In this document: one piece after another, positions 6,395 to 31,027 of the stretch
Position numbering within the stretch: position 1 is the first letter of the stretch
How the letters are laid out: the number at the start of each line of letters is the position of its first letter
IMG/VR virus record: IMGVR_UViG_3300020595_000121
Coordinates: 1-31,641 of that record
Origin: a virus
Direction: 5' to 3' (one strand)
Length of the DNA: 31,641 bases
Notes under the pieces: model-generated
What the model was told of the DNA's origin: nothing
Database searches by the model: none
What the model saw: only the letters and a program-made list of their open reading frames with translations
Made by a program: the position numbers and the translations under genes

Positions 6395-9292
6395 TTATAT
6401 TATACATTTTAATACCACTACCGCACATGTGTCTTGCCAAACTCCTGAAGTACATCTGAATTGAAATCTCAAATCATCTCCTGAATTAAATGTTGCATCA
6501 GTACTAGTTAAAACCCATCCTTTATATGTTCTAGCTGCTGCAGTAAATGTTTGTGAACCACTTGTATGTGAGGTAACTCCATTCACTAAAACTCTGAAGT
6601 TCATATTAGTTCCCGTCATTGCGGTCCCAGTTGCAGTGTTCTTGAATGCAACACTATGCACATATCCACCATAAGGCGTAACCATAAAGTGCTGCTCTCC
6701 TCCTGAAGCATTATCATTTGTTGTGTTGAATGGTAAATTCATGTATCCATTACCAGTTGAGTGAACAAAGTTAGATTGGAATGTCTGTGGAATGTAAGTC
6801 CATCCATCTGCTTGAATTATATCACATTGAATGTTTCCCGTAACATCAACATCTCCTCCAACATTAAGATCAACAGATACATCTAAATTACGAGATGTAA
6901 GTGTACTGCTTAAGAAGTTGTACTGAAGATTAGAATCATCTGTTGTAGTGTTTGTTCCATTGTATACTGCAACACCTCCAGATGTTCCTGTACCTGAATT
7001 ATATACTGTTCCGTCTAGTGAACCATTAGCTTTCAAGAAACTGTTTCCTGAAGATAACCCTGTTATGGTAAATGAATCTGCTATAATACCTCCTCCAAAG
7101 GTTCCTCCTGAAGCTGCAGATACAAAGTCAGTTGGAATAGTTCCTACTGCATAAGTATTTGAATCAACTGAACCATCTGCTTTTAAGAATTGTGAAGATG
7201 TTCCTCCATCCTTAATGAATGAGTCTGCTTTAACATTACCATTTACATCAACCATTTCTGTAGGTGTGATATCTCCAAACCCAACACCATCTTCTCTAAT
7301 GGTCATTAACTCGTTACCATCTACTTGAAATCTAAGTTCACTAGCTGACTCCACTCCCGTTGGGTCCACTCTAAATGTAAAGTTAGATGAAGACTTTAAA
7401 AACTCAGCATATCCTGCTGTATCACTATCTTCCATTCTAAATACTGGTGCTGCATTTTTCATGTGCAAAGCCTTCTGTGGAGTAAAGTTTCCACCAACAG
7501 CTAGCCTTTCTGAAATTATAGCTCTACCCGTTACATGAAGCTCCTCTTGTGGGCTTGTTTCGTTTATACCTACATGACCATCTGAGTCGATAGTCATTCT
7601 TGTAGCTGCTGCAGTTCCTAATAGCAATTGACCTCCAGTCTCTTCACTCATTATGGTAAAGTTATCACTAGAGCCTCCAAATCCAAAATAAGCATGTCTG
7701 TCATTACTCCTAGCAAATGTCACATATTGTGGACCATTGTCTGAATTGTTTAACTTTAGTATTGTATCTGTATTTGAATCAATTGTCAATGAACCACTAA
7801 AGGTTCCTCCTGAAGCTGCAGACACGAAGTCAGTTGGTAACACTTGGTCATTCGTTGCGTCAGTGTCTCCTGTAAATCCTAAGTCTGCTAGAGTTAGTGT
7901 TCTAGTTGCAACTGCCATTGCTGCATCCTCTACGTGACCAAAAGCATTTGTAGTTATGTTCATATCTATGTCAGATACTACTACAGCTCCCGTAAGAACT
8001 CCTGTGTCAACTGCCGCAGTGAAAGCTGTTTCTCCTGGGTGAGTATAAGTTGCTGCTCCTGCATCAAAGTTTAATTTTCCATCATTATCTGAATATGTTA
8101 CCGAGATTGATTGCTCTGTGTTAGATTGAACCATCGCTCCTACAATATCCTGAACCTGCTCTGTTGTCAGTTGAGTATCTGTTGTTGAGTATGTTGATGA
8201 GTCTACTGAACCATCAGCCTTTAAGAACTGAGAAGATGTTCCTCCTGTTTTAATAAATGATGTTGCTTCTATACTGCTATCTGAAACAATATTTGCCGAG
8301 GCAATTGATATCTGCTCGTCAATTGTAATTTCTGCTCCGTCTCCAGTAGTTATAAAAACCCCCTGGTCTCCGTAAAGTTTTATAAGTTCATTTGTATCTT
8401 CTTCAAGATAGCCATTACCTAAACTTCCTAATATAAATTTAGGTGCTTGAATTGTTCCTGCAAATACAGAAGGCAATGTGCTCACACTATTTATTGTTCT
8501 TGCATTTCCTGATACTGTTAGGTTACTTGTATTTGCTTCTAGATGAAGCACTGCAGCGTCAACTGTTGTTGTTGATCCTTGATTACAATCTAATCCAATC
8601 TCAGCTCCAACAAGTCTGTTTGTCACATCTCCTGCTGTAGTTTTTGTGTATGCTACAATTGATTGCATCTTTCCGACACTTGCGTTAGCGTTGTTTAATT
8701 CTGCCACTTGGTTTGTACCGATCAAGAACGGATGTGTTCCTGTTCCTGTTCCTGAGACAAGCCCTCTATTGTATGCTCCCCAAATTGCTCCAGTATTACC
8801 TGAGCCTAAATGCTTTGCATTACTTTGCGAACCTAATAGGTAGTAGGATATTCCACTTCCATTGTGAGTTGCACCAAAAGAACCTCCCTGAATGTCTGCA
8901 TTCTGTCCTGTTCCTTCTGCGTATACATTAGACCTTACTCCAAATGCTGATGCTCCCCACCCCGTTGTTGAGTGGTTTTTTGTGTAATCTATTTCAAATG
9001 CTCTAGACACATCGTAAGTGGTATCCGTAGCCTCTATGTGAAATAAGTTGTCATTGTCTGCTGTACCTATTGCAAGATTCCCGTCTACAAGTATACTTGT
9101 GCCATCATCTGTCATTATACCATCTGTGATAGTATCTGAGTCAGAAAATTTTGGTATTTTGTTTGCAGTTCCAGTTCCAACGTCAACACCGCCACTTGGA
9201 CCTGTGCTTGTACTACCGTCAGCCATTAAGTACTGGCTAGATGTACCACCTGTTTTTATAAATTGATCTGATTCGTATTGTTTTAATCCCAT
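6395..9292 (-). CDS. Long tail fibre / virion protein with repeated modules
   Basis: 965 residues. The N-terminus (GLKQYESDQFIKTGGTSSQY) already carries the 'FIKxGGTSSQxLKADGSVD' module, which returns around 8189-8264 and 7151-7227, with a shortened form near 7005-7045. 'PTDFVSAASGGTF' occurs twice (about 7800-7842 and 7097-7135). Residues about 80-290 are paralogous to the same part of the next fibre upstream (692 residues). It has further 'GINETSPQEELHVTG' units typical of marine phage fibres. The last 140 residues (from DGWTYIPQTF) differ in style and probably form the receptor-binding tip. No S74 chaperone motif is evident. It is the last fibre before the lysis genes. Confidence 0.8.
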   Translation of the reverse strand: MGLKQYESDQFIKTGGTSSQYLMADGSTSTGPSGGVDVGTGTANKIPKFSDSDTITDGIMTDDGTSILVDGNLAIGTADNDNLFHIEATDTTYDVSRAFEIDYTKNHSTTGWGASAFGVRSNVYAEGTGQNADIQGGSFGATHNGSGISYYLLGSQSNAKHLGSGNTGAIWGAYNRGLVSGTGTGTHPFLIGTNQVAELNNANASVGKMQSIVAYTKTTAGDVTNRLVGAEIGLDCNQGSTTTVDAAVLHLEANTSNLTVSGNARTINSVSTLPSVFAGTIQAPKFILGSLGNGYLEEDTNELIKLYGDQGVFITTGDGAEITIDEQISIASANIVSDSSIEATSFIKTGGTSSQFLKADGSVDSSTYSTTDTQLTTEQVQDIVGAMVQSNTEQSISVTYSDNDGKLNFDAGAATYTHPGETAFTAAVDTGVLTGAVVVSDIDMNITTNAFGHVEDAAMAVATRTLTLADLGFTGDTDATNDQVLPTDFVSAASGGTFSGSLTIDSNTDTILKLNNSDNGPQYVTFARSNDRHAYFGFGGSSDNFTIMSEETGGQLLLGTAAATRMTIDSDGHVGINETSPQEELHVTGRAIISERLAVGGNFTPQKALHMKNAAPVFRMEDSDTAGYAEFLKSSSNFTFRVDPTGVESASELRFQVDGNELMTIREDGVGFGDITPTEMVDVNGNVKADSFIKDGGTSSQFLKADGSVDSNTYAVGTIPTDFVSAASGGTFGGGIIADSFTITGLSSGNSFLKANGSLDGTVYNSGTGTSGGVAVYNGTNTTTDDSNLQYNFLSSTLTSRNLDVSVDLNVGGDVDVTGNIQCDIIQADGWTYIPQTFQSNFVHSTGNGYMNLPFNTTNDNASGGEQHFMVTPYGGYVHSVAFKNTATGTAMTGTNMNFRVLVNGVTSHTSGSQTFTAAARTYKGWVLTSTDATFNSGDDLRFQFRCTSGVWQDTCAVVVLKCII
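7151..8264 (-). repeat. In-gene repeats of the FIKxGGTSSQFLKADGSVD module
   Basis: Near-identical codons for FIKxGGTSSQFLKADGSVDSxTY occur at about 7151-7227 and 8189-8264 in this fibre, and a related copy (IIKSGGASTEFLKADGSVD) near 10455-10526 in the neighbouring fibre. The spacing (about 1 kb) and the similarity at DNA level suggest duplication or recombination between fibre genes. Confidence 0.7.
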
Positions 9293-9297
9293 GTTTA

Positions 9298-11376
9298 TTA
9301 TACGCTAAAAGTGTTTCTTACTACATTTACCCAACCATAAGTTGATGTGTCTGTTTGCATTATCATGTCTGCGTAAGATCCAAATGCATCTGCATAGTAT
9401 CTCATTGTTCCAACATTTGTTGACGCAGGTGTTTGTGTGTCGTTACCCATTCTTATTCCTCCATCTACATCCAACCTTGCTTGTGGGTCACTTGTTCCTA
9501 TACCTGTTCCTGAATTTGTAATTCTTATTCTTTCTGAATTGTCTGTTGCGAACAATATAGTGTCAGGTACTTCGTTACCAGATATTCTAACTCTTCCTAT
9601 GTTGGCGTCATCAGTTGCCCAGTTAATACTATATTGGTCATCAAGTCTAATGTCACCTGCAGATATATCTAATTTTTCTTGCGGGTTTGTTGTTCCTATT
9701 CCTAATTTACCGCTATTGTTTAAAGTTAAAGAATAACCTGCTCCACCTTCATTGTATACTCTAAAAGTACCATCGTTAAGTGCTGATAAAGAATATTTGT
9801 CCCCATTACCTCCTATTAAGTTGTATGACGCATTAGTACCATCTACAAGCATACCATCAAATCCACCTATAGCATCAAGTTGTGCTTTGACATCTACAGT
9901 ACCTAAGTCTATATGAAGTGGCTGTGATGGGCTAGTAGTTCCAATACCTACGTTACCATCTGAGTCTATTGTTAAGTTACCTGCATCAAGAGAAGCGTTT
10001 GAACCTAAGCTCATTTTAGAATCTTCAGATATCACATAGTTTGTTGTATCGTTGTCAGCAATAGAAATTCTTCCTCTATTGTCCGTAGACTTAAAATAGG
10101 CTATTGTTTCAATACTCGCACTATCTACATGAAGTTTAACACTAGGAGCTGTCGTTCCTATTCCTACGTTGTTAGTATCTTTTTCTATAAACAGTCCATC
10201 GCTACTGTTAGCTTTAAAATGCAAAGAGTTCCAACCAGTAAATCCTACATCAGCACCAGAAATTTGATATACATCTGTTGATAAAACACCAAAAGCAATT
10301 CCAGTTGCTGAATTACCAAATCTTGTGTTTCCATTTACTTCTAAAGGTACGTTTGGACTAGTTGTTCCAATTCCTACGTTGCCACTTGCATAATTTATTC
10401 CTCCAGTTACATCATCCCATTGTGAGCTTGTAACATCTGCTGAAGTTAGATAAGTATTTGTATCGACACTTCCATCTGCTTTTAGAAACTCTGTAGATGC
10501 TCCTCCTGACTTAATAATAGATGTTGCAGTAATGCTGCTATCTGAAACAATGTCTCCACCCCCAGTAATGTCTATCACGTCAGACATTTCAATTAACATT
10601 CCGTCACCACTTTCAATCTTTACAGCTGCATTTCCATAAAGTTCTACATCTCCAGAGTTTTCTCTTAGATAGTTACTTGAGCTTCCCAAGTCAAATCTAG
10701 GTGATTGAATTGTTCCAGCAAATTCTGAACGCAATGTGCTCAAAGAGTTTATAGCTCTAGCTGTACCTCCAACTGCTGAGTCAAATGTATCATTTTGTAT
10801 TCTTAGGTATTCAAAGTCTCCTGATATAGTCCCTCCTGTGTGGTCCAAATCTAATATGAGAGACATTACATTATCTGTAACCTCTCCGTCTGCAACTTGA
10901 ACAGTACAATGCTGACCTTGAAGAAAATCAACTGTGGCATTTGGATTGTCTAACTTTGCTATAGAGTTAAGTCCAACAACATAGCTATGATCTCCAGAAC
11001 CAGTTCCTCCAACTTTTGCTTCAGAAAATGTACCAGATATTGAACTAGAGTTTCCGCTTCCGCTATGGTATGCTCTGTTGGTTCCTCCAGTTGCATAGTA
11101 TATTTGTCCAGAACCCGTGTGCTCTGCCTTACTCCATACCCCACCTATGTTAACAACTATTTCTGAAGAATTTGCTATTGCGTAAGACTTCACTCCATAT
11201 ACATTAGATGCAAATCCTGCTCCACTTGTATTCTCTTTACTCAGCTCTATGTTTATACCTCTCGTCTCGTCATTAGCTACACTTGTCTTGTCAATATCAA
11301 TAAAGTGCTCAGGGTCTTTTCCAAGCCCTATATTTCCATCAGTATTAAGATCCGTTAAAATTTTCTTTATAGCCAT
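9298..11376 (-). CDS. Tail fibre / virion protein with GIGTTSP repeats
   Basis: 692 residues. The N-terminal start MAIKKILTDLNTDGNIGLG is followed by a region (about 28-230) paralogous to residues about 80-290 of the 965-residue fibre (shared landmarks: SGxGAxxxxxYGVxS, TGSGxHxYxxGxNxxAxLxN, ARxINSxSTLxxxFAGTIQxPxF). One FLKADGSVD module follows. Then four or more 'NVGIGTTSPxxxLHVD' units cover about 330-660, a pattern of many environmental phage fibres, probably short beta repeats along a trimeric shaft. The end (STYGWVNVVRNTFSV) is a short tip. It lies five bases before the next fibre gene, so the two are probably made together. Confidence 0.8.
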   Translation of the reverse strand: MAIKKILTDLNTDGNIGLGKDPEHFIDIDKTSVANDETRGINIELSKENTSGAGFASNVYGVKSYAIANSSEIVVNIGGVWSKAEHTGSGQIYYATGGTNRAYHSGSGNSSSISGTFSEAKVGGTGSGDHSYVVGLNSIAKLDNPNATVDFLQGQHCTVQVADGEVTDNVMSLILDLDHTGGTISGDFEYLRIQNDTFDSAVGGTARAINSLSTLRSEFAGTIQSPRFDLGSSSNYLRENSGDVELYGNAAVKIESGDGMLIEMSDVIDITGGGDIVSDSSITATSIIKSGGASTEFLKADGSVDTNTYLTSADVTSSQWDDVTGGINYASGNVGIGTTSPNVPLEVNGNTRFGNSATGIAFGVLSTDVYQISGADVGFTGWNSLHFKANSSDGLFIEKDTNNVGIGTTAPSVKLHVDSASIETIAYFKSTDNRGRISIADNDTTNYVISEDSKMSLGSNASLDAGNLTIDSDGNVGIGTTSPSQPLHIDLGTVDVKAQLDAIGGFDGMLVDGTNASYNLIGGNGDKYSLSALNDGTFRVYNEGGAGYSLTLNNSGKLGIGTTNPQEKLDISAGDIRLDDQYSINWATDDANIGRVRISGNEVPDTILFATDNSERIRITNSGTGIGTSDPQARLDVDGGIRMGNDTQTPASTNVGTMRYYADAFGSYADMIMQTDTSTYGWVNVVRNTFSV

Positions 11377-29953: not shown

Positions 29954-30257
29954 TTTTGTCTAGTTGTCTTTTTAATTCGTTTTCTATTGCGTTGCTTACG
30001 CCATTTACTGCTTCTGTTACTTGGTCCATTTCAAGCCTCTTTGTTTTTACGGCATAAGAAACTCTCTCCAATACCATCTGTCTTTCTTGACTAGATAGTG
30101 AAGATCCTTTGTGAGCAATAAGTGCGTAGTGTTTTAGTAACAGATCATCTGTAAGACTTAAGATCCTTTTCTTTTGAGGGCTTACTGTACCCTTTACAAG
30201 CATCTGCTCCTTGAGCATTTGTACTTGTTCTTCTGTGAGTTGTTGTTTGTCGTTCAT
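29925..30257 (-). CDS. First protein of the chaperonin operon, unknown
   Basis: 110 residues from ATG 30257 (MNDKQQLTEEQVQMLKEQML). A frame reaching 30383 would start upstream of the promoter and include its hydrophobic-looking translated leader; it is rejected. The protein is helical and highly charged with Gln/Lys/Glu-rich parts (AVNGVSNAIENELKRQLDKN). No known motif. It is first behind the promoter at 30278-30309, with a leader that carries ACACACAAT just before the ATG, complementary to the upstream RNA. Confidence 0.68.
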   Translation of the reverse strand: MNDKQQLTEEQVQMLKEQMLVKGTVSPQKKRILSLTDDLLLKHYALIAHKGSSLSSQERQMVLERVSYAVKTKRLEMDQVTEAVNGVSNAIENELKRQLDKNDSSKTEQQ

Positions 30258-30333: not shown

Positions 30334-30366
30334 AAAAAAAATACCATATCTCTGGCGAGATACAGT
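30334..30366 (-). terminator. Intrinsic terminator of the structured RNA
   Basis: On the minus strand ACTGTATCTC, loop GCCA and GAGATATGGT form a 10-bp stem (two wobble pairs), followed by A and eight Ts. No gene runs into it: the last stop codon upstream is over 400 bases away, so it terminates the non-coding transcript. Confidence 0.9.
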
Positions 30367-30707
30367 ATCTTTAAAAAACACACACAATGTTTACTATATA
30401 ACTAAACAACTTTAACTTTAATCTTGTTAATGATAAAATGTAATTTTCCCTACATCAGGTGTTACCCTGATCAGAGAAAAGAATTACTTCTTATCCTATT
30501 TTAACCTTCGTATCTTATAGAGTCCGTTCTCTTGACCTACATGGGTAGCTTTACCTGCTTTATTTATCCCACCACTCTACTTAATACTTGAAGGTCTGTT
30601 TCGTAATTACCGGGGACAACCTCTGCTTTATTTAAGCCTACTAACCCGATGTCTAAGTTCCACCGTTAGGGAAGGAACTGTAATCCAAATGATAAATGGA
30701 TATTACT
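30334..30707 (-). ncRNA. Stand-alone structured non-coding RNA, about 370 nt, family unknown
   Basis: A gene-less block with its own promoter (30712-30743) and terminator (30334-30366). No ORF of note on either strand. It is more GC-rich than the spacers around it and folds by eye into many helices on the minus strand: GTAAT..CCA/TGGATTAC at the 5' end; GTTCC/GGAAC whose loop CTAAC can pair with GTTAG downstream (pseudoknot); CGGG/CCCG around GCTT/AAGC; AGGT-TGT/ACA-ACCT; nested long-range ACCTTC/GAAGGT, TAGAGT/ACTCTA and TGGG/CCCA; GTAATT..TTTC/GAAAATTAC around ATCAGG/CCTGAT (loop GTAACA); TGTTTA/TAAACA. No tmRNA, RNase P, tRNA or group I core found. Confidence 0.78.
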
Positions 30708-30711
30708 TCTG

Positions 30712-30743
30712 CAAATATACAAACTTTAGTTTGATATTCCTAA
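30712..30743 (-). promoter_or_regulatory. Promoter of the structured RNA, with palindrome in the spacer
   Basis: On the minus strand TATATTTG (30712-30719) matches TAnnTTTG; TTAG (30740-30743) matches TTTG in three of four bases at the same 20-base spacing as the chaperonin-operon promoter. The spacer holds the palindrome CAAACTTTAGTTTG (30720-30733), a possible operator. Transcription would start near 30706. Confidence 0.7.
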
Positions 30744-30778: not shown

Positions 30779-31027
30779 TTACTCTTCAAAGCTTTTTTGA
30801 ACTAAGAAGGTCATTGTTGTAGTTAAAAATCCTAAATGAAATTGAAACATGTGTTGTGTGTAATACTTGCTCTCATCCTCAAGATCTTCTAAATCTATCT
30901 TGTTGTAATTTAAACCAAAGGCTATGCCAATTATAAAATCAAATTGAACTACGCCACTTTGTCTGTTATATACTACAGGAAACGTTATTAATCCTGCCAA
31001 CATTACTATGCTTATAAAATCTGTCAT
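30779..31027 (-). CDS. Small membrane protein
   Basis: 82 residues. Two hydrophobic parts, about 4-20 (ISIVMLAGLITFPVVY) and 64-76 (LGFLTTTMTFLV), flank an acidic segment (NYNKIDLEDLEDESKYYTQH). Its start overlaps the previous stop as TAATG. It is the last gene before the RNA block, with 70 bases to the RNA promoter. A role in the host membrane (superinfection exclusion or lysis control) is possible; no family recognised. Confidence 0.55.
   Translation of the reverse strand: MTDFISIVMLAGLITFPVVYNRQSGVVQFDFIIGIAFGLNYNKIDLEDLEDESKYYTQHMFQFHLGFLTTTMTFLVQKSFEE

Follow-up and report, generated by a model that had tools for sequence, protein, structure and literature searches.

A new type of structured non-coding RNA gene predicted across crAss-like phages (Crassvirales and relatives)

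Among the large RNAs of phages, GOLLD and ROOL come closest to the one described here; they are phage-encoded, ornately folded and without known function, and they are often found near tRNA islands (PMC12286853). Other structured RNAs with which a phage RNA can be compared are the pRNA of phage phi29, a short molecule encoded with late functions, and the IMES motifs of marine phages, which were recognized from marine sequence.

Crassvirales dominate the human gut virome and are its most abundant phages. In the open papers searched, no conserved non-coding RNA of Crassvirales besides tRNAs was found reported, nor any crAss non-coding RNA of a kind comparable to the one described here. This RNA lies in a virus record of 31.6 kb (IMGVR_UViG_3300020595_000121), the whole of which (31,641 nucleotides) is referred to as the window. 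It encodes a terminase, a portal and a major head protein with matches to phage families, and the terminase is 41–45% identical to those of Crassvirales (for example, crAss001 and cr111_1). The window is therefore a marine crAss-like phage fragment, and its main genes are all on the minus strand.

The gene-free block and its RNA

An initial annotation, made from the letters of the window, had pointed to a block of some 520 bases without genes that carried a promoter, nested helices and a terminator on the minus strand. The block is indeed free of gene-like ORFs over about 525 bases, between an ORF at 30779-31027 and an ATG at 30254, and within 30420-30720 no ORF exceeds 38 amino acids. It holds a genuine, independent non-coding RNA gene with an elaborate fold, and the features of this gene, all on the minus strand, are as follows.

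30740-30743 (-): −33 promoter element TTAG, 20 nt upstream of the −7 box; TTnG occurs at the same spacing in many homologues
30712-30719 (-): −7 promoter element TATATTTG; Bacteroidota consensus TAnnTTTG
30434-30706 (-): conserved folded core of about 270 nt (alignment A4, 12 homologues, 46 pairs)
30702-30706 (-): P1, 5′ strand GTAAT; 100% paired, both-side changes in 4 of 5 pairs
30678-30701 (-): hairpin P2a, ATCCA/TGGAT
30657-30678 (-): hairpin P2b, GTTCC/GGAAC; 100% paired, both-side changes in 2 pairs
30608-30656 (-): family signature TTAGACATCGGGTT, inner hairpin P3in, TCCCCGGTA; 87 viral stretches by pattern search
within 30608-30656 (-): helix P3, ATCGGG/CCCGGT; the R/Y pair covaries
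30603-30607 (-): P1, 3′ strand ATTAC, followed by conserved GAAA
30587-30596 (-): P4, 5′ strand GACCTT (first six bases); 98.6% paired, both-side changes in 2 pairs
30574-30579 (-): P5, 5′ strand TAGAGT; both-side changes in 3 pairs
30542-30571 (-): P6, TGGG/CCCA, around hairpin P6in, AGC-AGGTAAA-GCT
30518-30523 (-): P5, 3′ strand ACTCTA
30503-30508 (-): P4, 3′ strand AAGGTT
30437-30488 (-): P7, extended hairpin with 3′ motif TAGGGAAAATTACAT; 88% paired, TAGGGA invariant in A4
30334-30372 (-): intrinsic terminator, a long stem-loop (30372-30337) followed by eight T

The host-type promoter proposed earlier (TTAG at 30743-30740, then 20 nt, then TATATTTG at 30719-30712) is borne out by the conserved spacing between box and P1 in homologues, and transcription would start at about 30706. 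Of 68 members, 54 have a TAnnTTTG box no more than 25 nt ahead of P1 (background 1.8%), and in nearly all of these 54 it is 4–5 nt away. Most lineages have a promoter of the host type; three members (L122, L134 and L150) lack the box and share another upstream motif, CCTTTT and then GTTATA before P1, which suggests a different host or polymerase. The terminator with its eight Ts is likewise confirmed; three terminator-like sites were found against 0.1 expected, and members L004, L008, L055, L021, L013, L065 and L042 have terminators at a similar distance with different stem sequences. The approximately 65 nt preceding the terminator are not conserved among homologues.

The minus strand folds at −98 kcal/mol (z = −4.5; none of 100 shuffles was as good) and the plus strand at z = −0.9, so that the fold is strand-specific. 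The predicted structure has two domains, with P1 at the 5′-end, a junction whose unpaired bases hardly vary, and a 3′ domain that branches. All long-range pairs noted initially (ACCTTC/GAAGGT, TAGAGT/ACTCTA and TGGG/CCCA) form and show both-side changes in homologues, in which P6 changes from TGGG/CCCA to CGGG/CCCG and P6in from AGC/GCT to GGC/GCC; the hairpin ATCAGG/CCTGAT is replaced by other complementary pairs, such as ACAGG/CCTGT in L055 and CAAGG/CCTTG in L017. Two suggestions of the same annotation did not survive comparison. The CTAAC/GTTAG pseudoknot is broken in L055 (CTTAC with ATTAG), L017 (CTTGT with GTTAG) and L013 (CTAAC with ATTTG), and the two copies of AATAAAGCAG are a coincidence, as the second copy alone, the one with the AGGTAAA hairpin loop, is conserved. 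A kissing contact between the P2a and P6in loops is put forward tentatively: in the window UUUAUC is complementary to GGUAAA, and further candidate loop pairs are UUUACC/GGUAAA, UACCC/GGGUA, AUUUC/GAAAU and UUCUA/UAGAA (swap test p = 0.05, with loops chosen by hand).

Searches of the window against Rfam 15 (4227 families) gave no match at gathering threshold and unrelated weak matches in a relaxed search, and many loci of other members gave no relevant match at either setting. Neither covariance models nor ARAGORN detected a tmRNA, tRNA, RNase P RNA or group I intron in the window; a likeness by eye to group I introns, RNase P and rRNA (the AGGTAAA-CC loop; TTAGA..CCGGTA) is supported by no model. 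Like GOLLD (RF02032), the RNA is phage-encoded, large, ornate and without known function; it differs in having no sequence or covariance-model match to GOLLD (the window is below the gathering threshold) and in its core of about 270 nt, as GOLLD often exceeds 800 nt. ROOL, also a phage or prophage RNA of complex fold and without known function (PMC12286853), is far longer and of different architecture. With phi29 pRNA the RNA shares shortness, structure, coding alongside late functions and a possible loop-loop contact, but the folds differ and no covariance-model match was found; with the IMES motifs it shares an origin in marine sequence, but again no Rfam model matches the window. It is a new family among the structured RNAs of phages, which as a broad kind are known. 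The initial reading, a phage non-coding RNA of undescribed type, is upheld by this absence from Rfam together with marine homologues, strong covariation and conserved promoter spacing.

Homologues, subtypes and covariation

Homologues were sought in 66 loci encoding terminase relatives, nine of which carry a full-length homologue of the block, 70–93% identical and at the same place. Two pattern scans of viral contigs with a 60-nt module (TTAGACATCGG-R-TT, hairpin, YCYCCGGTA) returned 34 and 87 stretches, and about 70 distinct members remained after duplicates and chance matches were removed, so that the homology search proposed for marine phage contigs did yield relatives; about 70 further phage contigs have one at this site. 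The members comprise type A (that of the window), type B, which is large, and several that stand alone. A covariance model built from type B and two other members, with the window left out (R1), matches the window at 55.9 bits (E = 6.5e-11) and finds all other members too. The window also has the features by which the family is recognized: P1 directly after the promoter, the TTAGACATCGG..YCYCCGGTA module in P3, and the 3′ motif AGGGA..TATA. Among seven matches in genome contigs, six were judged to be chance and only one fits the model; it lies in a chromosome contig of Deminuibacter soli (L158:5698-5820, minus strand), near an RHS/deaminase toxin with a SUKH immunity gene and an AAA_24 ORF, and is possibly a mobile-element remnant.

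In all members examined, the 5 nt that immediately follow CCGGTA can pair with a 5-nt stretch just ahead of the junction. The P1 variants include GTAAT/ATTAC, GAGTC/GACTC, GATAC/GTATC, ATAGC/GCTAT and GTTGA/TCAAC, as well as ATCAC/GTGAT, GAAAC/GTTTC, CCAAC/GTTGG and GATGG/CCATC. The scan picked the best complement, and any single sequence is thus no proof; the complementarity gains weight from its fixed distance within each subtype and from the fixed spacing of 4–5 nt to the promoter box.

Several terminase relatives without an R1 match (L022, L024, L026, L031, L037, L041, L045, L052 and others) have a similar or larger gap at the same place. This gap is filled by a strongly diverged, conserved and covarying RNA with the same promoter, designated type D. 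Its 3′ half resembles that of type B (TGAATTAACA, GCACTGCT, CAAGG..GA..TATCTAAT), and the best non-member matches in this comparison reach E = 0.028 over all loci and 7e-5 at syntenic sites. Types A to D are regarded as one fast-evolving locus, the link of type D being suggestive. At the same locus in L043 (1045-1500), a block without genes has a leading promoter and a terminator and resembles neither type A nor type D; it is probably a further subtype.

The covariation that the initial annotation proposed to look for is present in three subtypes. It was counted at fixed columns, subtype by subtype, because MAFFT misaligned P1 across subtypes, in alignments A4 (type A, 12 sequences, 46 pairs), A5 (type B, 26 sequences) and A6 (type D, 13 sequences). 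Pairing is kept in 92.2% of cells in A4, with changes on both sides in 19 pairs (70 cells), in 98.9% of cells in A5 (15 pairs, 76 cells) and in 95.0% of cells in A6 (24 pairs, 70 cells). When the pairing was slid along A4 as a control, 33–48% of cells were paired with at most seven both-side cells, and over all three alignments slid controls gave at most 52% paired and at most 13 both-side cells; none of 500 shuffles matched the observed values, either for A4 or over A4 to A6. Slid controls keep the relatedness of the sequences and shuffles do not. Such pairing would be hard to explain without an RNA structure.

Genomic place and human-gut Crassvirales

Whole records carry one copy of the RNA, on the terminase strand and 2.4–8.5 kb upstream of the terminase gene, and a recognizable terminase of the same group is present in 39 of 46 records with a member. 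The genes that follow the RNA include those for a zinc-finger protein, for GroEL or GroES and for a helix-turn-helix-like protein, as well as the ORF before the terminase. Most type-A and type-D members have an intrinsic terminator; in type-B members no recognizable terminator was found, and the RNA runs towards the GroES gene. In L021, 21 tRNA genes are clustered directly before the terminase region (7142-9373), and tRNA arrays also lie downstream of the RNA copies in crAss001 and cr111_1.

These gut copies were reached through a general model of 37 members (R2), searched in 17 known phages. It matches cr111_1 (Steigviridae; E = 0.0012) in a 1.8-kb gene-free gap that heads the rightward late genes; INPHARED gave no blastn match to type-B or L122-type sequences, and R2 was required for cr111_1. 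The cr111_1 copy has GGAGGG/CCCTTC as its P3, a fully compensated change from ATCGGG/CCCGGT; its promoter is TTTG/TATCTTTG, and CTTAGGGATTTACTATGT is at its 3′-end. When the cr111_1 RNA was in turn used as a blastn query, crAss001, 25 PhiCrAssBcn phages and others were found (34 nt, 91%), as was cr128_1 (77 nt, 77%, E = 5e-5), whose P3 module is ATAGGG..TAGTAG-hairpin-TGAGGT..CCCTAT. The crAss001 copy (MH675552) occupies intergenic positions ~660-985 on the plus strand, between leftward gp2 and rightward gp3, with TTTG/TATGTTTG upstream and CTTAAGGGATTGTTATACAC at its end; it is no more stable than its shuffles (z = 0.02), so that the case for it rests on homology and position. In cr111_1, cr128_1 and crAss001 alike, the homologue, more diverged than those in the marine contigs, sits at the divide between early and late genes.

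Neither R1 nor R2 matched crAss002, cr11_1, phi14:2, ProJPt-Bp1, DAC15 or two Flavobacterium phages, and among the phages searched the two models did not detect the RNA in Intestiviridae and Suoliviridae; such phages may carry a diverged form. A match in cr55_1 (E = 0.08) was judged to be chance. Taken together, the sequence comparisons establish a new-type RNA gene that is order-wide across crAss-like phages (Crassvirales and relatives). Annotations of crAss-like genomes are without it because the family is invisible to Rfam. That one locus is kept across marine and gut lineages despite fast sequence turnover implies an important role.

Proposed role and alternatives

The RNA is probably a stand-alone gene of crAss-like phages whose product acts in trans as a structural RNA in the late phase of infection, and not a message or leader. 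This reading is favoured because conserved unpaired bases on fast-changing helices point to a conserved binding partner rather than to pairing with messages, and the locus keeps its position at the head of the late module. In crAss001, late genes come on at 30–60 min, probably through the host polymerase (PMC8375218). The host RNA polymerase would transcribe the RNA together with the late genes; the RNA would accumulate as a species of about 270–370 nt and act in trans, most probably in complex with a protein of the phage or the host. Its task would be in virion assembly or packaging, or in the control of host machinery. The broader proposal, a Crassvirales-wide, ancestral and fast-evolving structured RNA that heads the late module as a working part of the assembly or takeover machinery, is held tentatively, at somewhat less than even chances. 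If true, the most abundant phages of the gut would have an RNA component that had escaped recognition. The crAss001 homologue, with its cultured host (B. intestinalis) and published stranded RNA-seq (SAMN16810643–SAMN16810654), makes transcription and function accessible.

It is unlikely that the RNA acts during takeover as a decoy for, or an inhibitor of, the host's polymerase, ribosome, nuclease or defence system. Its rapid sequence turnover at a fixed locus would fit, as would the fall in bacterial host transcription at 10–30 min of crAss001 infection (PMC8375218), but the late-module position in crAss001 is later than host shut-off, and the unpaired signature is conserved over lineages with presumably different hosts. 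Rather less probable is a packaging-motor RNA in the manner of phi29 pRNA, copies of which would gather on the portal through loop-loop contacts and assist the terminase. The fixed place a few kilobases upstream of the genes for terminase and portal, on their strand, and the tentative complementarity of loops speak for such a role; however, the Rfam search, phage pRNA family included, gave no match, an intramolecular contact would account for the loops equally well, and a 197-aa ORF directly before the terminase could encode the small subunit.

Assembly into RNA-only cages or multimers, in the fashion of GOLLD and ROOL, is improbable to much the same degree. The RNA is likewise phage-encoded, ornate and without known function, and L021, crAss001 and cr111_1 have tRNA clusters downstream of it, as GOLLD and ROOL are often near tRNA islands (PMC12286853), but it is much shorter and unrelated in sequence. 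Three phages carry both GOLLD and the new RNA (L075, L084 and L087, with GOLLD at a locus separate from that of the type-B member), and the new RNA is therefore no substitute for GOLLD. A slightly poorer prospect is that the RNA acts in cis, as a leader of the late operon or of chaperonin genes that works, for example, by processing, attenuation or riboswitch-like control. Type-B RNA directly precedes the GroES gene with no terminator found between them, and type-B members may have such a role; against it stand the strong terminators after the RNA in the window type and type D, the differing genes that follow among lineages, and a TATATTTG box of its own before the GroES gene of L100. Conserved regulatory DNA or decayed coding sequence, with no RNA gene at all, is refuted by the covariation (compensatory changes at over 55 helix positions) and further opposed by the strand asymmetry of the fold and the lack of an ORF, and is almost certainly wrong.

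As to a putative binding partner, a likeness to Y RNA with Ro/TROVE was considered, as crAss001 and cr111_1 encode TROVE-domain proteins. This candidate was rejected: among 36 records TROVE occurs in these two only, and no match was found in the marine RNA-bearing records searched, including those of near-genome size (82–102 kb).

Some records carry further features of note. In those of L100, L106, L113, L121, L147, L089, L139 and L079 the terminase frame contains one in-frame stop (TAA; TAG in L089), which perhaps reflects stop-codon recoding or a match running past the gene end. Long insertions, perhaps inteins, interrupt the terminase frames in the records of L122, L134, L125, L151 and DAC15 (L167). 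L134, from a crAss-like phage contig whose record encodes the terminase as well, holds a permuted tmRNA at 366-548 on the minus strand (RF04321, 55.7 bits), in agreement with ARAGORN.
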